Below, piece after piece: positions 44,130-57,233 of a stretch of 64,000 bases of DNA. Position numbers and translations under genes: made by a program. The stretch comes from Flexistipes sp. (GTDB lineage Bacteria; Chrysiogenota; Deferribacteres; Deferribacterales; Flexistipitaceae): positions 310,001 to 374,000 of the forward strand of contig NZ_JAXKVW010000001.1 of assembly GCF_036172515.1 (NCBI RefSeq). Direction: 5' to 3'. The notes below the pieces were generated by a model. The model ran no database searches. It was not told the DNA's origin and was given only the letters and a program-made list of their open reading frames with translations. The stretch's first letter is position 1. Every line of letters begins with the position of its first letter.

Positions 44130-45338
44130 CTATTTGATTGTGCATTTACCGCTTTCGTAGTTAACATGTGCATCCAGATAATACAGTCTGTCCATCTTTT
44201 TGTAGCCGCACATGTCCTGCAAGGCGTAGTACAGCTCACTTGATCTGCCGCCTGCAGAACACATAAATACCACATATCCGTCTTCAGGCAGCTGATTGAT
44301 TACGTAATCACAACCTTTTTTGTAAACTTCATTCACATGGATATTGATTGCTCCTTTAACGTGTCCTTGTTTGAACTCCTCGGGGCTTCTCACATCAACA
44401 ATGTGAATGTTTTCAGGTCTGTCATCGATCAAAGTTTTAAAGTATTCTTTGTCAATGGTACCTTCTTCTTTTCCTTCTTTCAGAGCTTCCGCTTCATCTT
44501 CTTTTTCGGCCTTTTCAATTGTACCACCGGTTTTTGTGGTGGGGTGACCATTCTTTTTCCAGCCGGGAAGTCCTCCTGAATAATTATAAACATTTTCATA
44601 TCCGTACTCACTAACCAGTATCCCTGAAACGGTGTGTGATTTTACACATTTCCAGCCGCCGCAGAAGATAACTATGGCAGTTTTCTTGTCAGTTGGAAGT
44701 TTATCAAGGTATTTTTGCCTCTGGTCTTTCATGAACTTGAATTTTGTGTCCGGAATGCTTACTGCACCGGGAATTGTTTCAGCTTCAAATTTTCTTGCAG
44801 GTCTTGCATCCACAAATACAGCGTCTTCTTTATAAAGCTTTACGGCATAGTCGTCTGAAATTTCAACATAAGATTTTTTCGACCAATCGGGCATTCCTGC
44901 CAAATATACTTTGACATTTTTGTAGCCTTTTTCCTTGAGCATTGTTGCTACGTGATAACTTTTTACACATTTAAATCCGCCGCAGTATACTATTATTTCA
45001 GTTGTTTTTGTAACGCCAGTCAAAGACTCCAGTCTCGGGTAATGATCCTTGAACTGATTGTCGTGAATGTTAATTGCCCCTGGAATATGCCCGGATTCAT
45101 ACTTTCTGCCGGGCCTGGCATCGATGATGACGACTTGATCAAAATCCCGGAGTCCTTTGCCTACCTTTTTGCTAACATACTCAAAATCAACCAGTTGAAA
45201 TCCTGCAGCTTCAACCTTTTCCTTGACACTCATTGTTTTTGCAGGTTCTGCAGCTTTTTGGGGAACTGCACAACCAGCTATCAATAAAACAAATAGTAAG
45301 GTTGGTAAAATAAAAAGTTTCTTGAAATTCTTAAACAT
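44130..45338 (-). CDS. Lipoprotein with three rhodanese domains
   Basis: 402 residues from ATG 45338; a GGGAGG ribosome site 7 nt upstream rules out the longer frame. Lipobox LLIAGC with lipidated Cys23. Three rhodanese domains: ~50-155 with CGGFKC (119-124), ~165-265 with CGGWKC (226-231), and ~295-395 with the active loop CSAGGR (Cys360). The first two loops are short, two-cysteine versions of the classical six-residue loop; the third looks catalytically normal. Anchored in the periplasm, it may bind or transfer sulfane sulfur (or possibly arsenic thiolates). Divergent from the arrT-like gene. Confidence 0.92.
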   Translation of the reverse strand: MFKNFKKLFILPTLLFVLLIAGCAVPQKAAEPAKTMSVKEKVEAAGFQLVDFEYVSKKVGKGLRDFDQVVIIDARPGRKYESGHIPGAINIHDNQFKDHYPRLESLTGVTKTTEIIVYCGGFKCVKSYHVATMLKEKGYKNVKVYLAGMPDWSKKSYVEISDDYAVKLYKEDAVFVDARPARKFEAETIPGAVSIPDTKFKFMKDQRQKYLDKLPTDKKTAIVIFCGGWKCVKSHTVSGILVSEYGYENVYNYSGGLPGWKKNGHPTTKTGGTIEKAEKEDEAEALKEGKEEGTIDKEYFKTLIDDRPENIHIVDVRSPEEFKQGHVKGAINIHVNEVYKKGCDYVINQLPEDGYVVFMCSAGGRSSELYYALQDMCGYKKMDRLYYLDAHVNYESGKCTIK

Positions 45339-45368
45339 ACATGTACCTCCCATTATTTTTGTATAATA

Positions 45369-45807: not shown

Positions 45808-45835
45808 TTGGCAAAAGAATTGAATATTGTATAAT
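45808..45835 (+). promoter_or_regulatory. Promoter of the arrT-like gene (sigma-70 or degenerate sigma-54)
   Basis: Two readings overlap. Sigma-70: TTGGCA (45808-45813), 16 bp, TATAAT (45830-45835), but the start would fall on the ribosome site. Sigma-54: TTGGCAAAAGAATTGAA (45808-45824) matches -24 but has GA instead of GC at -12. I cannot decide between them. Confidence 0.4.
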
Positions 45836-45853
45836 ATTTTCAGGAGTGTAATT

Positions 45854-46693
45854 ATGAAAAAGTTTTTTTTATTTTTATTTGTATCTTTATACTTTTTAAG
45901 TTTTAATTCTCAGGCGCAGCTGAAGTTCGGTATCGCTTCCATGATTTCTCCCGAGGAAACATTTATACTTTATAAAGACCTGAACGATTACATAGCTGAA
46001 AAACTTGATATGCGGATAGAAACGGTGCTTAAAAAGGATTACAGCGATATGAATAAACTTATTGTAGATAACAAGGTTGATTTTGCACTTGTATGTACTG
46101 GGTCTTTCTTCTTTTTACAGGATAATGAATACAAACTTATGGTAACACCGGTTATCGACGGTAAAAGTACATACAGATCATATATTATTGCTAACAGTAA
46201 CAGTGGTATAGACGAACTGATCGATTTAAAAGGTAAAACATTTGCTTTTGCCGACAGGCTGTCCAATTCAGGTTCTATTTATCCTAAATATATAATAATT
46301 AAACGTTTTAATATTTCCTATGAAAATTTTTTCCAGGAGACTTTTTATACGCATTCACATGACAAATCGATATATCTGGTAAATAAAGGTGTAATAGATG
46401 GAGCAGCCGTGGACAGTTTAGTTTATGACTATTTGGCTGAGACGAAACCTGACGAGGTAAAAAACATCAGGATAATCCATAAATCCCCATATTTTCCCGC
46501 ACCTTCAATAGTTGCCTCTGGTGCAATTGATAAAAAATTATTCGATGAGATTACCCGGATTCTACTGAAAATGCACAAAGATCCTAAAGGAAAAAAGATT
46601 TTGGAGGATCTGAATATTGATAAATTTGTTGTGACCAATCCGGAACGCTTTGAAGAAATAAGAAAAATGCAGAAATTAGTTGATGACTTTTAA
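45854..46693 (+). CDS. Periplasmic PhnD-like substrate-binding protein (ArrT-like)
   Basis: 279 residues from ATG 45854 (AGGAG 7 nt upstream). Signal peptide ~1-22. Type 2 periplasmic-binding fold of the phosphate/phosphite/phosphonate group: MRIETVLKKDYSDMNKLIVDNKVDFALVCTGSFF, DLKGKTFAFADRLSNSGSIYPKYIII and VDSLVYDYLA. No ABC permease or ATPase follows; instead a sensor kinase overlaps its end, so it likely senses an oxyanion (arsenate/arsenite) for that kinase, as AioX/ArrT-type proteins do. Inference rests on context. Confidence 0.8.
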   Translation: MKKFFLFLFVSLYFLSFNSQAQLKFGIASMISPEETFILYKDLNDYIAEKLDMRIETVLKKDYSDMNKLIVDNKVDFALVCTGSFFFLQDNEYKLMVTPVIDGKSTYRSYIIANSNSGIDELIDLKGKTFAFADRLSNSGSIYPKYIIIKRFNISYENFFQETFYTHSHDKSIYLVNKGVIDGAAVDSLVYDYLAETKPDEVKNIRIIHKSPYFPAPSIVASGAIDKKLFDEITRILLKMHKDPKGKKILEDLNIDKFVVTNPERFEEIRKMQKLVDDF

Positions 46694-48047
46694 AAAATTT
46701 TTACCGCAAAAATTTACAAATCGTATAATCCTTCTGATAGGCTTTCTTGGAGTTATTACGGCAGCCGTTAATACCAGTTTTACAATTTATACGAACTATA
46801 AAAACACTTATGAAAAGGTGTTCAACTCAATTGAGATTCAGTATGATATTTTTGCAGATGATTTTGCAGAAGCTATGCTTCTGGAAGATATATATTCGAT
46901 ATATTCTGAAGTAAATGAAATCAATAAATCTTTTGGTTTTATATCCAATATCTACGTTTTGGATGCCAAAGGAGAATATTTTACAGATGCCAATGCAACC
47001 AGAAAGATGCCTGATAATATTTCTGAGGATACTACGGTTAATAAGGCTATAAAAGCCGGTGAGACAACAATCGGTAAAATAATTTTTGTGCTAAATAAAA
47101 ATGAAATTCAAAAAGGTATATTTTCCGATGTTTCACGACTCGTATTTGTGAATATTTTTATAGTTATTATGGGTGTTCTGCTGGGGATAGTACTTGCAAG
47201 ATTTCTTTCCAATCCTTTGAAGCAGCTGAGTTATCAGATTAGCAATATAAACCCCCTGAAGATTCCTGAGGAGCTTCATACCCCTGCATTCTCTTCTTAC
47301 GAGGTTGAGCAGCTGAAAAATACCCTGCATGATCTATCTTACAGACTGAAAGAATCAATCAGTCAGATTAAGCAGCAACAGCGGGAAATTAATAAGGCAG
47401 AACGACTTGCTTCAATCGGTACAATGGCTGCCGGCCTGGCTCATGAGCTGAAAAATCCCATTATGTCATTGAAGCTTATCAGTGATGCCCTCCAAAAAGA
47501 GTATGCCGATAAGGACTTTAATTTAAAAAAGGATATGGAGATGATATCCCGTCAGTCGGACAGGCTTGTGAAGCGGATTAATACATTTCTTGCTTATGCA
47601 AAGCCGATTGAAAGCAAAATAATAGAAATAAATATCCCAGAGTTTGTAAAATATTTAAAAGATCTTTTTTCAAAATATATGGATAATGTTTATATAGAGT
47701 ACAATTATCACTCAACGGGAAATTTTAAAACGGATGCAGAAATGCTTGCACAGGTGCTGGAAAATCTTGTTCAAAACTCTTATGAGGCCGGGGCTGAAAA
47801 TATTACTATATCTTTTTATTTTGAGAATAACAGATTTATTATTAAATATTTTGACAACGGAACAGGTTTTGAAACTTCAGACAGGGATGAAATTTTCAGG
47901 CCGTTTTTCACCACCAAAGAAAGCGGTACGGGGCTGGGACTGGCAATGTGCGAAAAGATTCTTGAAAACCTGGGCGGGAGTATTTCCGTTATAGATACAA
48001 ATTACGGAGCCGGCTTTTTCATTGGGATTAATCAGAGTGGGCTTTAA
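46683..48047 (+). CDS. Sensor histidine kinase (ArrS-like), membrane bound
   Basis: 454 residues from ATG 46683, overlapping the binding-protein stop by 11 nt. TM1 ~14-34, periplasmic loop of ~115 residues, TM2 ~150-172, HAMP-like linker, HisKA with phospho-His in AAGLAHELKNPIMSLKLI, and an HATPase domain (ENLVQNSYEAG, YFDNGTGF, GTGLGLAMC). The small periplasmic domain likely contacts the binding protein. Its 3' end overlaps the convergent regulator gene by 20 bp. Confidence 0.92.
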   Translation: MTFKKFLPQKFTNRIILLIGFLGVITAAVNTSFTIYTNYKNTYEKVFNSIEIQYDIFADDFAEAMLLEDIYSIYSEVNEINKSFGFISNIYVLDAKGEYFTDANATRKMPDNISEDTTVNKAIKAGETTIGKIIFVLNKNEIQKGIFSDVSRLVFVNIFIVIMGVLLGIVLARFLSNPLKQLSYQISNINPLKIPEELHTPAFSSYEVEQLKNTLHDLSYRLKESISQIKQQQREINKAERLASIGTMAAGLAHELKNPIMSLKLISDALQKEYADKDFNLKKDMEMISRQSDRLVKRINTFLAYAKPIESKIIEINIPEFVKYLKDLFSKYMDNVYIEYNYHSTGNFKTDAEMLAQVLENLVQNSYEAGAENITISFYFENNRFIIKYFDNGTGFETSDRDEIFRPFFTTKESGTGLGLAMCEKILENLGGSISVIDTNYGAGFFIGINQSGL

Positions 48048-49419
48048 TGGAATATTTTTTTAGTTTATCGTATAGCGTTACTCTGCTTATGCCGAGCATT
48101 TCTGCAACCTGTGAGAGATTGCCTTTGCATTCTTTTAAAGCGTCTTCAATAAACTCTTTTTCTATATCATCAAGTGCACGGTGGAGGACTTCTCCGTAGG
48201 AGTGCTCTCTGTACTCTTTGTACAGATGTTTTTTAAGATTTTGTACGTTTTTTGCCGCTTCTTTACTTTTTGGCAGCACAATATCGTCCGGTTCAAGTGT
48301 CTGCCTACTGGAAACAATAACGGATTTTTTTATTATGTTTTTCAATTCTCTGATATTGCCAGGCCAGCTGTATGACGCAAGTATTTCAAAAACACCTTTA
48401 TGTACACAGGTGATTTCTTTATCAAGATTTATACATGCTTCTTTTATGAAAAATTTGGAAAGTTCAACTATATCAGCCTTACGATCTCTTAAAGGGGGTA
48501 AATGGATGCTGAATACATTTAATCTGTAAAACAGGTCTTCCCTGAATGAGCCTGATTCAAGTTTTTCATCCAGATTTTTGTTGGTGGCTGAAATTAATCT
48601 CACATCAACTTTTTTGAGCTTATTTTCGCCAAGCTTTTCTATTGTTCCGTCCTGTAGAACATGCAAAAGTTTTGCCTGTAAACCGGACGGCAAATCCCCT
48701 ATCTCATTGAGGAAAATTGTCCCCTTGTCGGCCGTTTCGAATTTCCCTTTTTTGGACTGGTAAGCTCCGCTGAAAGCTCCCTTCACATGCCCGAACATTT
48801 CACTTTCCAGAAGACTTCTGGGAATAGCTGCACTGTTTACAGGTACAAAAAAATAGTTTGAACGACTGCTGTAATCGTGAATAATCTTTGCGATATGATC
48901 CTTTCCTGTACCGCTTTCTCCAGTTATCAAAACAGGTGAATCTGTTGCTGCAACCGTGGCAACATTTTTTAGTATTTTTATCATTTGTGGGGATTTTCCT
49001 ATAAATACATTTGGAGGATATTCAAACTCAGAGATATTGATATAATTATCGGAACAGATATTCTTCTTTACAACGTTTGCTTCGATAAGACGAAGGAAAC
49101 CATCTGTTTCCAAAGGTTTACTGATAAAATCGGCTGCCCCCTGACTGATGGATTCCAGTATCGTTTCACTGCTGCCGTATGCCGTCATAAGGATACAAGG
49201 TAATTTTGGAAAACGTCCTTTTATTTCTTTGAGAATCTCTGTACCGCTTTCTTTGCCTAATCTTTGATCGATAAATGCAATATCAATAGGGTTGTTGGAA
49301 AGTATATTGTAAGCGGTTTCGGAATGTGTTGCAGTAAATACCTTGTGAATGTTGCGAAGGGCCCTCTCAATGCTGTAACAGAGCCCTTCGTCATCATCAA
49401 TTATAAGTACATTTGCCAT
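48028..49419 (-). CDS. Sigma-54-dependent NtrC-family response regulator (ArrR-like)
   Basis: 463 residues. Receiver 1-120 (Asp51 in AFIDQRLG), AAA+ domain ~140-370 with Walker A GESGTGKD, a GAFSGA loop (usual GAFTGA, contacts sigma-54), Walker B region GTIFLNEIGDL where Asn replaces the usual Asp, and sensor II/arginine region FYRLNVFSIHLPPLRDR. C-terminal Fis-type helix-turn-helix LSQVAEMLGISRVTLYDKLKKY. Probable partner of the convergent kinase and activator of the sigma-54 promoter of arrA. Confidence 0.92.
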   Translation of the reverse strand: MANVLIIDDDEGLCYSIERALRNIHKVFTATHSETAYNILSNNPIDIAFIDQRLGKESGTEILKEIKGRFPKLPCILMTAYGSSETILESISQGAADFISKPLETDGFLRLIEANVVKKNICSDNYINISEFEYPPNVFIGKSPQMIKILKNVATVAATDSPVLITGESGTGKDHIAKIIHDYSSRSNYFFVPVNSAAIPRSLLESEMFGHVKGAFSGAYQSKKGKFETADKGTIFLNEIGDLPSGLQAKLLHVLQDGTIEKLGENKLKKVDVRLISATNKNLDEKLESGSFREDLFYRLNVFSIHLPPLRDRKADIVELSKFFIKEACINLDKEITCVHKGVFEILASYSWPGNIRELKNIIKKSVIVSSRQTLEPDDIVLPKSKEAAKNVQNLKKHLYKEYREHSYGEVLHRALDDIEKEFIEDALKECKGNLSQVAEMLGISRVTLYDKLKKYSIKAHSD

Positions 49420-49429
49420 TACTCTCTCT

Positions 49430-50068
49430 TTAAAACTCTTTTAAAAGTTTATTTATATGTAATATAGCATCCCCTGTAATTTTATAAACATTTGTTTCAG
49501 CATTGTCCTTAATTTTTTCTGCAAAATTCTCAGAAAAAGGTAGATAATATTTTTTTAGAAATTCTCTGAGCTTTGTTTTATAGTTTTCGGCGTCTTCAAC
49601 TTTATCTTCATTTAAACTGTTAAAAATTTCAGAAAAGAGAAAATGTATAAATTCCATTTCCACTGCAATATGATCGGGCGGATCGTTATAATCTGAAGCC
49701 ACTTCCAATCCGCTGTCAAAATAAAATTGTCCCACCTCCATGGTGGTATCACCCATTATCTTTCTGTTCTTTTCAAGATAGACCGATCCGTAAGGGGGTG
49801 CTGACAACTCAAAGGGACCTACCATGAGCTGAGCGTGATCGGTAACAATGTCCTCTTCGGATTCTTCATTCAGAAACTGTTTAATTTTACTAATTTTTGA
49901 GATCAATTCATTATCTTCCAAATCTTCGGCATATTCGATGAAGTTATCGATCAGGTTCTTTTCATTTAATATCCCTTCTTTTGGTGTATACATCAGAACC
50001 GATAAAATATGCATCATATTACCAAAAATTGCAGAATGAGAGAGAGTTTTTGTATTGGAAACCATCAT
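49430..50068 (-). CDS. TorD/DmsD-family chaperone (ArrD-like)
   Basis: 212 residues, all-helical. YTPKEG..., HAQLMVGPFELSAPPYGSVYLEKNRKIMGDTTMEVGQFYFDSGL and DPPDHIAVEMEFIHFLF are the conserved TorD-family segments that bind twin-arginine signal peptides and guide cofactor insertion. Dedicated chaperone for the ArrA-like subunit encoded just upstream. Lies after a terminator that follows arrB, and 10 bp before the regulator gene. ATG with GGAGGA. Confidence 0.88.
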   Translation of the reverse strand: MMVSNTKTLSHSAIFGNMMHILSVLMYTPKEGILNEKNLIDNFIEYAEDLEDNELISKISKIKQFLNEESEEDIVTDHAQLMVGPFELSAPPYGSVYLEKNRKIMGDTTMEVGQFYFDSGLEVASDYNDPPDHIAVEMEFIHFLFSEIFNSLNEDKVEDAENYKTKLREFLKKYYLPFSENFAEKIKDNAETNVYKITGDAILHINKLLKEF

Positions 50069-50133: not shown

Positions 50134-50895
50134 TTATGACCTGGCCTTGAAACTCCTGATGTAGTAAATATTGGGTTTTGTGCCTGCTTCAGGTTTTCTC
50201 ACCCAATATCTGTATTTTTTAAGGAGCTTCGCGGCTTTACTGTTCGGGTTGTCAATATCACCGACTATCCTTGCCTGTGCCGGGCAGGCTGTTGCGCAGT
50301 AGGGTTCTTCACCCGCTTTCAGTCTGTGCTCACACAGTATGCATTTTTCAACGATACCGGGTCTTCTTACAGCTTCGTAGTCAGGGTGCTTGTACTCAGT
50401 TTTATAAGGAGGTATAGCACCTGTTTTTGAAGCAACTTCCGCACCTGAAGCTGTACAGCCTGCAATCAACTCTTCTTTATCGTGATACAGCTCGTGAGTC
50501 TTCTCACCATCAAAATTGAAGCTGATCACTGAAGTTGCATTGCTGTCTTCTTTCTCCAAATCCATTATGCTGTAGGGACATGCATGCTGGCATGAGCGGC
50601 AGCCTATACAGCGCTCATCATTGTGCATGGTAATACCGGCATCCGTTTTAAACATCGCTTTGGGAGTAACCGGACATACTTCAACGCATGCAGCATTGGA
50701 ACAGTGATTACAAAGTACGGGTATAATTTCATAATTTACATCAGGAAACTTCCCGCTCCACTTTGTTGTAAAATCAGCCCAGTTGTAGGACTGACCGTTT
50801 TTCCTGTTATCCGTATTGTTTTCTGTTTTACACGCCATGCCGCATGCTCCGCATCCAGCACATTTGTGCAAATCTATGACCATTGCGTATTGCAT
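50134..50895 (-). CDS. arrB: Arsenate respiratory reductase iron-sulfur subunit
   Basis: 253 residues. Four cubane-cluster motifs, 16 cysteines: CAGCGACGMAC, CNHCSNAACVEVC, CIGCRSCQHAC and CILCEHRLKAGEEPYCATAC. DmsB/PsrB/ArrB type electron-transfer subunit; no signal peptide, so it should travel to the periplasm together with the ArrA partner via Tat. Lies 24 bp after arrA. No NrfD/PsrC-like anchor gene follows, as in known arrAB operons that rely on a separate quinol dehydrogenase. Confidence 0.9.
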   Translation of the reverse strand: MQYAMVIDLHKCAGCGACGMACKTENNTDNRKNGQSYNWADFTTKWSGKFPDVNYEIIPVLCNHCSNAACVEVCPVTPKAMFKTDAGITMHNDERCIGCRSCQHACPYSIMDLEKEDSNATSVISFNFDGEKTHELYHDKEELIAGCTASGAEVASKTGAIPPYKTEYKHPDYEAVRRPGIVEKCILCEHRLKAGEEPYCATACPAQARIVGDIDNPNSKAAKLLKKYRYWVRKPEAGTKPNIYYIRSFKARS

Positions 50896-50919: not shown

Positions 50920-53451
50920 TTATACTTTCTCTATACGTACACCGACAAAGCCGCCGTTTCTGGCTGTACTACCTGATAGACGGTCATAATCAGCAGGCAT
51001 AAGGTCATTGTTATTCATACCAAAACCCTCTTTGCCAAACTTTTTGGATGCTATCCTGCCGTATGCTGTATGACCTTGTCCATACGTTGAAAGAACCGTT
51101 CCGGGGCGTACGCCTTCGGAAAGTTTTACTTTTATCTTTCTTGAAGTTACCACTGTCGTAATTTTTACCATATCGCCGTTTTTCAAGCCCAGTCTTTTGG
51201 CATCATCAGGGTTCATTTTCAATACATTATCCCAGCGCTCATCACCAACGTCGATTACTCTGAATTCCTGCATCCATGGGCAATTTGCACTTCGTCCTTC
51301 TTTATTCAGTTTTGACCTTGAGTCGATGAATGTAAAAGGGTATGCACTTTTGCTTCCATATCTGTAAGGTTCTTCATAGTGGGGCACAAAAGCTTTTTCA
51401 TCACGGGCGGTATAGTTTGTAACCTCAAGAACTTTGTTAACATCAACATTATGTTTTTTTGCATGTTTTGCCAAAGCTTCTTTCAGAGTTTCACTGTAAA
51501 ATTCGAACTGATGCGTTTTGGTTTTGAATTTACCCCAGCGTTTTCTGTAAGGATACGGATCGGAATTCCATACACCGATTTTTCTAAACTCCTCCCAGCT
51601 TTTGAAGGAATCGCCGCCTTTGTCATGTCCCTGCCACATTGGAGCGAGATAATATTTGGTTGCATATTCAGCGAACTCCCTTTCATTAGTGGGCTTTTTA
51701 CCTGTATCAGGGTCCTTGAACTCATTCTTATAATATTCCAGTAAATTATCAAAGCCCCTTTCGGCAAGTTTCTCAGCTATCATATAAGGGATTTCCGATT
51801 CATCTATTTTAGCTTCCCAGATCGGTTTAACTACAGGCTGAAGAAGGGTTCCCGTTCCTATTCTGTTTGCTTTGGTTTTCAACCATGCCCACTTTTCAAA
51901 CGTTGTGGTGGCAGCCGGTAACACAATGTCAGCAAACATAGAAAATTCTGAAGCATGTGTGGACAGGTGCACGGTAAAAGGCACTTTTGCCAGTGCTTTA
52001 TCCCACCTCTGGCCTTCTGTTCCGGAAAAATTAAAATTGTTCATATAGCCAAGAACCATTTTGATTTCCATCGGATCTTCCTGAAGGATACCGTCAGCTG
52101 CATTATTTGTCACAACACCGCCGCCGGATTTACCTTTTTTCAGGGCGGGGAATTTCAGGTAACCTCTTTGATCTATTTTTACATGAGGTTTATTTTTAGA
52201 GATGGTATCCTGATATTTTTTTATGCTTGGTGTATGGTTGTACGGTGGAGAAATCTTAGCCATGGGACCGCCTATATTGTCAGTTGAGCCCATCAGTCCG
52301 TTTAATGCATGGATAGCCATGGAACTGTAAGTTCCCCGGATATGCATTGCAGCTCCGGGGCCAAGCCATACGGCTACTTTTGGCGCAGCTGCTCCCATTC
52401 CTCTTGCCACTCTGTATATCTGGTCTGCTTTTACACCTGTGATTCTTTCCGCCCACTCCGGTGTTTTATCTTTCAGTTCGATATTCCACCATTTTACAAG
52501 ACCATGTGTATAGTTTCCTTTAAATGTGGATTCATCAACCTCTTCTCCAAGCTTGAATCTGTTTTTGCCGTCTTTAAAATCTCCGACAAATTCTTTGTAC
52601 CATAAACCTTCTCTTAAAATTACATGAGCTATTGCTACAGCAAGTGCACCGTCTTCACCGGGTTTTACCGGCATCCACTCGTTAGCTTTTGCGCCTATTG
52701 TTGTAAGGGTAGGATCAACAGCAACCACAGTAGCCCGATCCATAACTTCGCCGATTTTATTGATGGCAGTGGGAACCTGTCTGTTGGACCTGAGAGGGTC
52801 AGCTCCCCAGCATACAAGATACTTGGTATTTGTCAGATCATAATCTCTGTAATCCCATAAACCTTCCGTGAAAAATGGGCCTGATTTGTCAGCCTCAGCA
52901 CATATGGCTGAGTGAGAAATATTGTTTGATGAGCCGAATATTTTTGTCATTGAGGAATAAATAATGTCTCTTGTGTATGTGTAACGGCCTCTGAAACAAA
53001 CATATTTATGGGCTTCACCGTTATCCCTGAGTTTCATCATGTTGTCTGCAATGGTATTCAGTGCTTCATCCCAGGAGATCGGTACAAATTTTGGATCTTC
53101 AAATCTGCCTTTTTTGGGATTGGTTCTTTTCATGGGAACCTTAACTCTGTCCGGGTCATAAACCTGCTGCAGACCTAAGTGACCTCTTGCACAGCAGTAA
53201 CCGCCGTTCATTTTGCTGTACTCATTACCACGGACTTTCACCGCACGTCCGTTCTGCACATAAACCTGAATTGGATCCCATGTGGTGCATCCCTGACATG
53301 TTGTGGGAATCCATTCCCCTTTGTTTTTTCCGTAAGGGCTTACGGTTTTGTCGGTTTTTTCCAGTGCATTTAGCTTTGTGCCGCAGCCTAATGCTGTCAC
53401 TGTGGCAACCGCCGCACTGGCTTTGAGAAACTCTCTCCTGCGGATTTTCAT
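50920..53451 (-). CDS. arrA: Arsenate respiratory reductase catalytic subunit (molybdopterin)
   Basis: 843 residues from ATG 53451 (GGAGG upstream). Twin-arginine signal RRREFLK at 4-10. Large DMSO-reductase-family molybdoenzyme. Fe-S motif is C52-x2-C55-x3-D59-x27-C87: Asp replaces the usual third Cys. The catalytic region matches ArrA in order and spacing: R156, H180-x3-C184 (expected Mo ligand)-x4-K189, then Y201, which correspond with constant offset to residues I recall from the Shewanella ArrA structure. Motifs NRQVPTAINKIGE, MKRTNPKKGR and the C-terminal GFGMNNNDLMPADYDRLSGSTARNGG support ArrA over polysulfide reductase. Followed by arrB. Confidence 0.85.
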   Translation of the reverse strand: MKIRRREFLKASAAVATVTALGCGTKLNALEKTDKTVSPYGKNKGEWIPTTCQGCTTWDPIQVYVQNGRAVKVRGNEYSKMNGGYCCARGHLGLQQVYDPDRVKVPMKRTNPKKGRFEDPKFVPISWDEALNTIADNMMKLRDNGEAHKYVCFRGRYTYTRDIIYSSMTKIFGSSNNISHSAICAEADKSGPFFTEGLWDYRDYDLTNTKYLVCWGADPLRSNRQVPTAINKIGEVMDRATVVAVDPTLTTIGAKANEWMPVKPGEDGALAVAIAHVILREGLWYKEFVGDFKDGKNRFKLGEEVDESTFKGNYTHGLVKWWNIELKDKTPEWAERITGVKADQIYRVARGMGAAAPKVAVWLGPGAAMHIRGTYSSMAIHALNGLMGSTDNIGGPMAKISPPYNHTPSIKKYQDTISKNKPHVKIDQRGYLKFPALKKGKSGGGVVTNNAADGILQEDPMEIKMVLGYMNNFNFSGTEGQRWDKALAKVPFTVHLSTHASEFSMFADIVLPAATTTFEKWAWLKTKANRIGTGTLLQPVVKPIWEAKIDESEIPYMIAEKLAERGFDNLLEYYKNEFKDPDTGKKPTNEREFAEYATKYYLAPMWQGHDKGGDSFKSWEEFRKIGVWNSDPYPYRKRWGKFKTKTHQFEFYSETLKEALAKHAKKHNVDVNKVLEVTNYTARDEKAFVPHYEEPYRYGSKSAYPFTFIDSRSKLNKEGRSANCPWMQEFRVIDVGDERWDNVLKMNPDDAKRLGLKNGDMVKITTVVTSRKIKVKLSEGVRPGTVLSTYGQGHTAYGRIASKKFGKEGFGMNNNDLMPADYDRLSGSTARNGGFVGVRIEKV

Positions 53452-53503
53452 GTTACCTCCTTTTATAATTAAACGTTCACTGGTTAATTGCATATTAATT
53501 CAT

Positions 53504-53520
53504 TGCAATATCGATGCCAA
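53504..53520 (-). promoter_or_regulatory. Sigma-54 (-24/-12) promoter of arrA
   Basis: Minus strand TTGGCATCGATATTGCA: GG at -24 and GC at -12 with the exact 10-bp spacing and matching flanks of the TTGGCAC-N5-TTGCA consensus. Start of transcription would lie about 40 nt upstream of the arrA ATG. Confidence 0.85.
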
Positions 53521-53583
53521 CGCACTCCAAATTACCAAATGCCCGTATAACAGCTGTTTATGAAAGAAATTGTAAGCGAGATA

Positions 53584-53621
53584 TGTAAGTATTCTTTACA
53601 GCCATGTAAGATATGTTTACA
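53584..53621. promoter_or_regulatory. Two in-phase palindromes, likely enhancer (UAS) for arrA
   Basis: TGTAA-N7-TTACA at 53584-53600 and again at 53605-53621; centres are 21 bp apart, two helical turns. They lie about 90-130 bp upstream of the predicted sigma-54 start, the usual distance for enhancer-binding proteins. An extra half-site TGTAA occurs at 53571-53575. Confidence 0.8.
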
Positions 53622-54118: not shown

Positions 54119-55285
54119 TTAGCCCCAGAATGTTCCGTAAATAACACCTGCTACTGTAGACATAACCACAACAAGTATAACATATACAACCGTTTTCCGG
54201 GTTCCTATCACACTCCTTATAACAAGCATGTTGGGCAAACTGAGTGACGGTCCTGCCAACAGAAGGGCAAGAGCGGGACCTTTGCCCATACCGGCGCCGA
54301 TAAGACCCTGTAGAATAGGTATTTCGGTAAGTGTGGCAAAATACATGAATGCTCCGACAATGGAAGCAAAAAAGTTGGCAAAGAGACTGTTGTCCCCGAC
54401 AAGTCCTTCAACATATTGTGAGGGTATTATACCTTCGTGCCCCGGGCGCCCCAGGAGAAAACCAGCCACTATGACACCGATGAAAAGAAGGGGCAAAATC
54501 TGTTTTGAAAACCCCCACGTTTCGTCCATCCAGGTACCCCTTTTCCCTTGATCCATTCCTGTAAATGCCATTATGATGACAACAGCCAGTGAAACTGCCG
54601 TTAATGGCCATTTATAATTGAAAATCAGGGCAAAGATGCCGCCATCAGAAGCCGGATTTGCCCATGTGGCAAATATCAGCACACCTATTAGTGCTGCGAA
54701 GAATATAAATGTTTGCAGCGGGTGACCGTCTTCAGTTTCTACTTCCCGTTTTGGTGCGCTATCATATCTTTCCTTCTCATCGTTTCTGAAAATAAAAGCC
54801 ATTGATAATCCTATAATTACTGCAAAAATTATAGCACCGATTGCTCTGGCAAGCCCCATCTCAAAACCTAAAACCCTTGCAGTTAAAACAATTGCCAGAA
54901 TATTTATTGCAGGACCGGAATAAACAAAAGCCATTGCCGGTCCGAGCCCGGCCCCTCTGGAATATATACCTGCAAAAAGAGGTAGAATTGTACAGGAACA
55001 AACAGCCAGTATAGCTCCGGATACCGATGCCACAGAATATGAGACTATTTTTTTGGCTTCAGCTCCAAAATATTTTATTACAGATGCCTGGGAAATAGTG
55101 GCACTCATAGCTCCGGCAATAAATAGGGCAGGCACCAGACAGGTAAGCGTATGCTTCCTGACATACTCCTGCAGCATATAAAAGCCTTCCAGAATTGCCC
55201 CGGAAACTGAAGGGGTATTAAAATCCACAAAATAAACGTAGGCAAAAATGAGCAAAATAGTTAAAAATTTGTTTCTTTCTTTCAT
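54119..55285 (-). CDS. DUF318/YraQ-type permease (ArsP-like)
   Basis: 388 residues, about ten membrane segments in two halves. The hallmark CSCTILPLFAGIYSRGAGLGPAMAFVYSGPAINILAIVLTARVLG is in the first half and a related PALALLLAGPSLSLPNML block in the second. Cytoplasmic linker at about 170-185. Some members (ArsP) export trivalent organoarsenicals; given the neighbours (thioredoxin-like, arr, acr3, arsC) a role in arsenic handling is plausible but not shown by sequence. Weak ribosome site. Confidence 0.85.
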   Translation of the reverse strand: MKERNKFLTILLIFAYVYFVDFNTPSVSGAILEGFYMLQEYVRKHTLTCLVPALFIAGAMSATISQASVIKYFGAEAKKIVSYSVASVSGAILAVCSCTILPLFAGIYSRGAGLGPAMAFVYSGPAINILAIVLTARVLGFEMGLARAIGAIIFAVIIGLSMAFIFRNDEKERYDSAPKREVETEDGHPLQTFIFFAALIGVLIFATWANPASDGGIFALIFNYKWPLTAVSLAVVIIMAFTGMDQGKRGTWMDETWGFSKQILPLLFIGVIVAGFLLGRPGHEGIIPSQYVEGLVGDNSLFANFFASIVGAFMYFATLTEIPILQGLIGAGMGKGPALALLLAGPSLSLPNMLVIRSVIGTRKTVVYVILVVVMSTVAGVIYGTFWG

Positions 55286-55387
55286 CAGTGTACCCTGCTG
55301 TTTTAATATCTGGAAAAGAATAATATGCTTTCATTGTATAGATGTCAAGTATGTTTTTATATATAACGAAATAAATAGATTGTATCT

Positions 55388-55662
55388 ACTTGTATACATA
55401 TTTGTTTATTATATCGTTTTTTATGGTAGAGATTTTCACCCACGCACTTAAAGCGTTAAGTGCGCAGAACCGGTTTCTCAACCTGTTTTAGGGGGAAATC
55501 AAGAGGGGGTACATTTATTGACAAACAACGTTAGAGATTTCTCCGCTCCACCGACCGCTATGAAATAGTGCTCGGTTCCGGTCGGAATGACAGTTTTTTG
55601 TCACCTCGACCGAAGCCGAAGGGTCTTGTCTATTATATTAATAATTTCTGTGAATCTGCTTA
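55388..55662 (+). repeat. Modular intergenic repeat, left flank of acr3-arsC
   Basis: 275 bp with ends ACTTG...CATATTTGTTT...GTAGAGA and TTAATAATTTCTG-GAATCTGCTTA that recur, same orientation, at 57291-57577. Interior differs: palindrome CGCACTTAA-AGCG-TTAAGTGCG (about 55443-55464), GAGGGGGTACATTT (also at 58373-58386), and two GATTTCTCCG...GGAATGACA / GTCACCTCGACCGAAG modules. Fills the whole permease-acr3 gap. Confidence 0.7.
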
Positions 55663-55697
55663 GTAAATTATTTCCCGGTTAAAAAAGTATGCTTAAA

Positions 55698-56801
55698 TCA
55701 GGAAGTTGATTTGCATTTAACGTGGCAGACACCCTGTATAGTGTTTACTGCAAAGGGGAAGTATTTTTCTTTAAATCTCAAAGCCACATGTACCAAACCG
55801 ATCAGCACCGGCACTTCCACAAGCGGCCCTATAACAGCTGCAAAGGCCTGCCCTGAATTTATGCCGAAAACGGATATAGCCACGGCGATAGCAAGCTCAA
55901 AATTGTTGGATGCGGCAGTAAAACTCAGAGTCGTGGTTTGCTCATATGTTGCACCGATCTTGTAGGACATGAAAAAAGAAATAAGGAACATAATCACAAA
56001 ATACAATAATAACGGAATTGCAATTCTGATAACATCAAAAGGAAGTTTTATAATATACTCCCCTTTGAAAGAAAACATCACAAATATAGTAAAAAGCAGA
56101 AAGACCAGGGTTAAAGGGCTTATTTTCGGGATAAAAGTGTTTTCATAGGCTTCTTTTCCCCAGATCTTTAGTCCGGTAATTCTGGATAAAATTCCCGCAA
56201 TAAAAGGAATACCAAGGTAAATAAAAACACTTTTGGCAATCTGCGGCATTGAAATATCCACAATTGTACCTTCAAAACCAAACAGGGAAGGCAGAAATGT
56301 TATGAAAACGTATGCATATACTGTGAAAAACAACACCTGAAATACCGAATTAAAAGCCACCAATCCTGCGCAGTATTCGGTATCACCTTTTGCAAGGTCG
56401 TTCCAGACAATTACCATAGCAATGCAGCGGGCAAGTCCGATAAGAATGAGGCCTGTCGTATATTCATTGTGCCCTGACAGGAAAGCCACAGCTAATAAAA
56501 ACATAAGTACCGGCCCGACTATCCAGTTTTGAACAAGTGACAAAGCCAGCACCTTGACATTTTTAAAAACATGAGCCAGCTCTTCATATTTTACTTTTGC
56601 AAGTGGAGGATACATCATCAGAATGAGACCTATTGCAATAGGTATATTCGTAGTTCCCACACTCAGTTTATCTATTGTATCGGCAATCCCCGGGAAAAAA
56701 TAACCGGAAGATACTCCTACTATCATCGCAAGGAATATCCACAACGTTAAAAATCTGTCCAGAACACTCATCTTTTTTGCAACGGATTCTTTAGCCACCA
56801 T
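55698..56801 (-). CDS. acr3: ACR3-family arsenite efflux transporter
   Basis: 367 residues, ten membrane segments. Extrudes As(OH)3. The essential cysteine is in [13 protein letters not shown] (Cys126) and the essential glutamate in [23 protein letters not shown] precedes the ATG; 12 bp after arsC, so both are one transcript. No arsR gene is in the window. Ends in a basic Cys-containing tail (GVCHVKCKS). Confidence 0.95.
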
Positions 56802-56813
56802 ATCCCCCTGAAA

Positions 56814-57233
56814 TCAAATAATTTTGCTCAATTCGTCTTTTATATAACTTTTTATTTCATCACGTACTTTTCTGAATTGACCAAGTATTTCTTCTTCGCT
56901 CCCTGCCACCTGAGCCGGGTCATTAAAACCCTTATGTATCATCTGCGCTTTTTTTAAATACATAGGGCACGTTTCATTCGCATGACCACAGACGGTAACA
57001 ACCACATCAAAATCTATACCCTTAACATCATTCAGTGTCTTGGAATAATGTCCCTGCATCTCGTAACCGTCTTCCTTCATTACTTCCAGCATATAAGGGT
57101 TGAGTCCATGTTTTTCCAGCCCGGCCGAATAGACATCATAATGTTCCAGATAATTTTTTCCATACGCCTCAGCCATCTGACTCCTGCAGGAATTACCCGT
57201 GCATAGAAATAAAAGTTTTTTTGAGATTGCCAT
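56814..57233 (-). CDS. arsC: Arsenate reductase, thioredoxin-coupled
   Basis: 139 residues. Low-molecular-weight phosphatase fold: P-loop C11-TGNSC-R17 (C-x5-R), and the redox pair Cys82 and Cys89 (VCGHANETCP), the same three cysteines used by thioredoxin-coupled ArsC. DPAQVAGSEEEIL holds the catalytic aspartate region. Reduces cytosolic arsenate for Acr3 export. First gene of the arsC-acr3 pair. Confidence 0.96.
   Translation of the reverse strand: MAISKKLLFLCTGNSCRSQMAEAYGKNYLEHYDVYSAGLEKHGLNPYMLEVMKEDGYEMQGHYSKTLNDVKGIDFDVVVTVCGHANETCPMYLKKAQMIHKGFNDPAQVAGSEEEILGQFRKVRDEIKSYIKDELSKII

Follow-up and report, generated by a model that had tools for sequence, protein, structure and literature searches.

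The arr locus and its promoter

The window analyzed here, the whole 64-kb stretch of Flexistipes sp. DNA, carries an arr locus with genes on both strands. The catalytic subunit of respiratory arsenate reductase, ArrA (843 aa, with a Tat signal), is encoded at 50920-53451 on the minus strand; NF041714 was by far its best NCBIfam model (1135 bits over positions 1-848 of 848; curated cut-off 1600), and the solved ArrA 6cz7 aligns with residues 44-843 (E = 1.3e-295). Next in tandem on the same strand are arrB (50134-50895), encoding the iron-sulfur subunit (best match NF041715, 253 bits; cut-off 450), a gene for a TorD/DmsD-like Tat chaperone (49430-50068; PF02613, above cut-off), and arrR (48028-49419), encoding an NtrC/AtoC-type response regulator (PF00158 and PF02954) composed of a receiver domain, an AAA+ sigma-54 interaction domain, and a Fis-type helix-turn-helix domain with the helix ISRVTLYDKLKKY. 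Beyond arrR, on the plus strand, lie arrS (46680-48047), for a sensor histidine kinase, and arrX (45827-46693), for a PhnD-like periplasmic oxyanion-binding sensor. Encoded together beside a molybdoenzyme, X, S, and R form a set of the AioXSR/ArrXSR type. A gene for a three-domain rhodanese (44130-45353) adjoins arrX, and a rhodanese is also found beside the XSR genes of one relative (L140). The region upstream of arrA (54119-57233) holds arsenic resistance genes, encoding an ArsP-like permease, Acr3, and a thioredoxin-type ArsC.

The elements upstream of arrA could be read directly. A sigma-54 (-24/-12) box, TTGGCATCGATATTGCA, occupies 53504-53520 on the minus strand, with GG and GC at consensus spacing and 52 nt separating it from the arrA ATG at 53451. 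Farther upstream are two exact TGTAA-N7-TTACA palindromes: the promoter-proximal one (TGTAAAGAATACTTACA in the direction of arrA; 53584-53600) is centered 73 bp from the -24 element, and the promoter-distal one (TGTAAACATATCTTACA; 53605-53621) is centered 21 bp, or two helical turns, from its neighbor. The sequence-only reading had described a box with exact -24/-12 spacing about 50 nt before arrA, which was confirmed letter for letter, and two such palindromes with centers 21 bp apart, which were found as described. A lone TGTAA half-site lies outside any palindrome at 53571-53575 (plus strand). The ATG at 53451, preceded by a GGAGG ribosome-binding site (53456-53460, minus strand) and followed by the Tat signal MKIRRREFLK, is most likely the arrA start; the start of an alternative, longer reading frame (53493) would coincide with the transcription start, predicted at about position 53494. 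Relative to this predicted start, the palindrome centers would lie at about -98 and about -119, and the dyads are placed as enhancers (UAS) are, approximately 70-150 bp from the start and on one face of the DNA. The AioR-type palindrome GTT-N10-AAC is absent from the window arrA promoter, the sites there being TGTAA-N7-TTACA, and an Rfam scan of the window between 44 and 58 kb gave no match.

Both motifs are rare. The arrA box is the sole exact copy of TGGCAY-N5-TTGC in the 64-kb window, and the arrA pair are its sole exact copies of TGTAA-N7-TTACA. Pattern scans of the complete 2.47-Mb genome returned just six sites for TGGCAY-N5-TTGCW and 10 for the palindrome, two of them at arrA and the other eight within longer reading frames. 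The genome scan proposed along with the motif singled out the arrA pair as the only tandem, all other copies being single and intragenic. Strong sigma-54 boxes are lacking at promoter distance from these eight, the nearest approach being a weakly similar sequence 56 bp from a palindrome within an ABC-transporter gene, and the pattern scan found no second target in the window's own genome. Under a model trained on other families, the window tandem scored 19.5 bits, with the next best score in 64 kb being 4.0; the maximum over 60 simulated 16-kb sequences was 11.3 bits under the model built from all arr sites. A single rpoN (PF04552) is present in the genome, together with roughly 12 activators of sigma-54 that are full-length.

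Related promoters before ArrAB and TtrBA-like enzymes

We detected arrA (E up to 1e-150) in 12 of the 51 genomes of the phylum. In all nine Deferribacterales genomes among them, including that of the window, arrA is accompanied by an NtrC-type arrX-arrS-arrR set and preceded by a sigma-54 box and two palindromes of approximately 17 bp with centers 21-23 bp apart, the TGG of the box lying 50-68 nt before the start codon. A tandem model trained by leaving out one family at a time ranked the arrA site first in 9 of 9 loci (19.5-37.7 bits; next best anywhere, 12.8), a sample in which some genome pairs are closely related and hence not fully independent. The remaining three arrA genomes, of family f10, contain arrX, but neither an NtrC-type ArrR beside arrA nor such a promoter was found in them, in line with the CitB-type ArrR published for Chrysiogenes (PMC5908839). 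A CACTTAC element noted near the box in some arr promoters of families f5 and f4 proved not to be general.

The same architecture recurs before a different enzyme. A search of the 51 genomes with the tandem pattern recovered four arr promoters and sites in four genomes without detected arrA (G013, G025, G027, and G028), in each of which the pattern precedes a two-gene operon for an iron-sulfur protein and a molybdoenzyme of 1036-1081 aa. These operons adjoin homologues of X and S and, except in G028, where the contig is short, of R as well. The best model for the molybdoenzymes is TtrA, with 432-499 bits in the three tested, far below the equivalog cut-off of 1750, and we refer to them as TtrBA-like. 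Similarity searches with ArrR yielded further TtrBA-like XSR loci, in G010, G024, G009, G006, and a second XSR set of G017. When XSR-linked ttr loci were scored with a model built from arr sites only, the ttrB promoter came out on top in 8 of 8 (23.9-35.3 bits), a count that leaves out G017 and includes four loci found by ArrR similarity rather than by the motif. In a ninth locus, of G011, inspection revealed TGTAAAGAAACTTTACA and TGTAAAGATTCTGTTCA 22 bp apart, followed by TGGCATGTTTTATGC. Nine relatives without detected arrA have an XSR module and a promoter of this architecture ahead of a TtrBA-like molybdoenzyme (L140 10540-14405, L144 10664-14542, L162, L145, L141-L143, L146, and L148). 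The ttrB promoter of G017 (L150) has the box and no palindromes, which may be explained by the regulator there carrying the helix ISRATL. In some ttr boxes the -12 element is TTGA or ATGC instead of TTGC. Two additional tandem matches (G017:628594 and one in G044) have no XSR beside them and were taken as chance. Three of the loci encode a 258-aa protein between X and S (L141 4831-5607, L142 12937-13713, and L143 7274-8050), which by eye resembles the phosphodiesterase/alkaline phosphatase fold.

Overall, the order has 19 promoters of XSR-linked enzymes, and 18 of them display the box and tandem palindromes. Across these 18 arr and ttr promoters, the palindrome centers are 21-23 bp apart and 57-86 bp from the TGG, and the distance from the TGG to the start codon is 41-68 nt in every case; the consensus of the 36 sites is YGTAAAG-N3-CTTTACR, with GTA/TAC strongest. 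The site had been put forward as a motif for an arr regulator, and it does precede arrA, but it is not specific to arr, as it precedes TtrBA-like operons as well. The enhancer-promoter distances of the 18 promoters cluster at 57-60, 69-73, and 81-86 bp, a helical phasing that is suggestive but weak: after de-replication it was reached by 428 of 20,000 random sets, and the best period fell at the edge of the scanned range.

In two species of one genus, G012 and G013, the same chromosomal locus, with flanking genes common on both sides, carries arrAB-torD in the former (L107 4709-14127) versus ttrBA with genes for a small protein and a rhodanese in the latter (L140 5398-16086). Their R, S, and X proteins are 96%, 91%, and 89% identical, respectively, and their promoters, aligned with each other and judged by eye, show little likeness beyond the palindromes and the box. 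In the regulator tree, in which G008 was labelled ttr though its short contig shows no enzyme, arr- and ttr-linked rows are interleaved, parsimony requires the linked enzyme to have changed at least 3 times, and the window regulator groups with ttr-linked ones of family f5 (98/97). Given the difference in enzymes at one locus and the interleaving of the tree, the DNA site appears to go with the regulator rather than with the enzyme genes. The same observations bear on whether the elements are conserved only because a young arr island was inherited in common and not through functional constraint. Although certain of the genomes are closely related, which would favor that explanation, the poor alignment of the G012 and G013 promoters outside the palindromes and box, the position of arrR (downstream of arrA in the window, upstream in f5 genomes), the presence of the same elements before a different enzyme operon, and the repeated change of linked enzyme make it scarcely credible.

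The regulator and its recognition helix

We compared 80 arrA loci from genome contigs, many of them with an NtrC-type ArrR. In the scannable loci, no TGTAA-N7-TTACA with up to 1 mismatch was found within 400 bp upstream of arrA, save in L023, which is a Deferribacteraceae record. For eight loci of a Nitrospirota ArrR group (L025, L027, L031, L052, L060, L078, L089, and L091), the 170 bp upstream of the sigma-54-like box were read by inspection and contain GTTAC-N6-GTAAC or a close variant, which fits the AioR consensus GTTN10AAC (PMC5335332). Several Nitrospirota-type arr loci have two GTTAC-N6-GTAAC-like copies approximately 85 bp apart before sigma-54-like boxes, and in two Kapabacteria arr loci (L075 and L084) a possible TACGA-N4-TCGTA-like dyad precedes a TGGCA-type box ending in TTGAA. 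The expectation that related arr promoters carry the motif was thus borne out by box and tandem palindromes in all eight other Deferribacterales arrA genomes and failed in other phyla, where the site is absent or of another type.

The type of site varies together with the recognition helix of the regulator. The helix ISRKTLWEKM of the Nitrospirota group goes with GTTAC..GTAAC sites, the ISRTTLWEKM of AioR (Agrobacterium and NT-26) with GTTCG-N6-CGAAC sites, and the ISRVTL of Deferribacterales ArrR (ISRMTL in G019) with GTAAA half-sites, and in the genus of G020 and G022 the helix is ITRVTL and the half-sites are GTATA. This correlation was noticed by inspection and not predicted, and few independent changes lie behind it; it makes the specificity of ArrR directly testable. 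Among the C-termini of enhancer-binding proteins read from the window's own genome, ArrR alone has the SRVTL helix. The regulator at 48028-49419, already named as binder in the sequence-only reading, is therefore supported as the candidate on four counts: the linkage of an NtrC-type arrR with arrA in 9 of 9 genomes, the correlation of site type with the recognition helix, the uniqueness of that helix among the C-termini read, and the persistence of the site with the regulator where the enzyme genes differ.

The palindromes might instead be operators of another regulator, of the ArsR/SmtB, CRP/FNR, or TyrR type, situated near a sigma-54 promoter by chance. The ars genes near the window arrA would suit such a role, and TyrR and CRP/FNR sites are likewise short palindromes of similar length. 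However, the TyrR box is 18 bp long and the window palindromes 17 bp; more generally, the sites occupy the sigma-54 enhancer position in 18 promoters, their type varies with the ArrR helix and is kept alongside ArrR where another enzyme is linked, and that helix occurs in no other enhancer-binding C-terminus read in the genome. An operator of this kind is thus quite improbable.

We favor, at a probability of roughly 85%, the reading of this region as a sigma-54 promoter of arrA with its enhancer, switched by ArrXSR via ArrR. In the proposed mechanism, periplasmic ArrX would bind an oxyanion of arsenic (arsenate being the likeliest) and activate the kinase ArrS, which would phosphorylate ArrR in a putative phosphorelay. 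ArrR dimers would then bind the two palindromes, two turns apart on one DNA face and upstream of the -24 element by approximately 57-86 bp, and the assembled AAA+ ring would open the sigma-54 promoter and turn on the arr genes, presumably as an operon of arrA-arrB-torD, possibly with arrR, in tandem. Across the order, the XSR module would act as one unit with its DNA site, controlling ArrAB in the window and a TtrBA-like enzyme in relatives.

The signal, the linked enzymes, and known systems

The residues lining the AioX pocket (Y88, C106, Y131, S161, S163, H192, and D210; PMC5908839) are all conserved in the window ArrX (7 of 7), and S163T was the sole pocket change in any of 24 aligned X proteins. 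The 22 X sensors of the phylum keep this pocket, including Cys106, which PhnD lacks (PMC5908839); Ser163 is replaced by Thr in six of them, namely 2 of the 10 ttr-linked sensors and four arr-linked ones. Chrysiogenes arsenatis ArrX is reported to bind arsenate, and phosphate approximately 150-fold more weakly, with tetrathionate and thiosulfate among the ligands tested (PMC5908839). These data also address the idea that the signal for XSR is a sulfur oxyanion, either tetrathionate or thiosulfate, and that control of arr is incidental, which would agree with TtrA being the best-scoring model for the linked enzyme at roughly half the XSR loci and with the rhodaneses beside the TtrA-like enzyme of G013 and the window arrX. 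The retention of the AioX pocket with Cys106 in 22 of 22 sensors (S163T in six), the reported ligand preference of C. arsenatis ArrX, and the acr3 or arsC genes beside several ttr-linked XSR sets (these genes are close to XSR in G010, G011, G024, and G025) render a sulfur signal unlikely and an arsenic oxyanion the more probable ligand.

The XSR-linked TtrBA-like enzymes, several of them beside acr3/arsC, are candidate arsenic-oxyanion enzymes. Genome G011 matches Deferribacter desulfuricans SSM1 (PMC6896113), which the title of its describing paper, as cited there, calls sulfur-, nitrate-, and arsenate-reducing; arrA was not found in this genome at E up to 1e-150, whereas a TtrA-like gene with 92% identity to the G010 one was. 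For a Pyrobaculum tetrathionate reductase, activity as an arsenate reductase has been hypothesized (Cozen 2009, cited in PMC9751042). Because enzymes differ at the same locus under one sensor and the arsenic pocket is kept, the TtrA-like enzymes would be arsenic-responsive and possibly arsenic-respiring. Five residues past the presumed Mo-ligand Cys, the window ArrA and 6cz7 have a Lys, a residue with a presumed role in ArrA, whereas the TtrA-like enzymes have His or Tyr (judged by eye). Since this difference calls for caution, we only tentatively suggest, at somewhat less than even odds, that the TtrBA-like enzymes under an ArrXSR-type switch in arrA-less Deferribacterota are respiratory reductases of arsenate or a related arsenic oxyanion that replace Arr. 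If true, this would explain arsenate reduction by D. desulfuricans without detected arrA, and the TtrA-like candidates offer a testable answer to how arsenate is reduced without that gene.

The arrXSR genes have been reported to be absent from Deferribacteres (PMC5908839), and the Deferribacterales XSR loci contradict that report. The window accordingly provides a concrete candidate site for the control of arsenate respiration and an XSR switch in a phylum described as lacking one, and the motif can be used for finding regulon members in genomes. We did not find a site of the window type described in published work (PMC5908839 and a limited literature search).

The closest known counterpart is AioXSR/aioBA of Rhizobium NT-26 and Agrobacterium GW4 (PMC6011840, PMC5335332), which likewise combines a PhnD-like X, a kinase S, and an NtrC/AtoC-type R with a sigma-54 promoter, an upstream palindromic activator site, and the same X pocket residues. 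AioR, however, recognizes GTTN10AAC (GTTCG-N6-CGAAC), has the helix ISRTTLWEKM, and controls the oxidase AioBA, whereas the window has two 17-bp sites of the TGTAAA-N5-TTTACA type, the helix ISRVTL, and ArrAB as the predicted target. The ArrR of Nitrospirota and other metagenome-assembled genomes is similarly NtrC-type and encoded near arrA, with sigma-54-like boxes upstream, but its sites are GTTAC-N6-GTAAC or close to it, the AioR type. C. arsenatis ArrXSR resembles the window set in having a periplasmic ArrX, a kinase, and a regulator beside arrAB; its ArrR, in contrast, is of the CitB type without AAA+, its site is FixJ-like, and a sigma-54 promoter was not detected (PMC5908839), while the window ArrR, with PF00158 and PF02954, falls outside the CitB type. 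Because the C. arsenatis regulator belongs to another family, "ArrR" is not one regulator everywhere (PMC5908839). TtrSR/TtrBCA is comparable to the relatives' systems in that their enzyme is TtrA-like and the TtrSR sensor has a PhnD-like domain, but in the relatives sensing is divided between separate X and S proteins and the regulator is NtrC-type; no TtrC anchor has been reported to accompany the enzyme of Deferribacter autotrophicus (PMC6896113). As predicted from its sequence, the arrA switch is thus a variant of the known XSR/sigma-54 arsenic switch, with a putative site distinct from those of AioR and Chrysiogenes.
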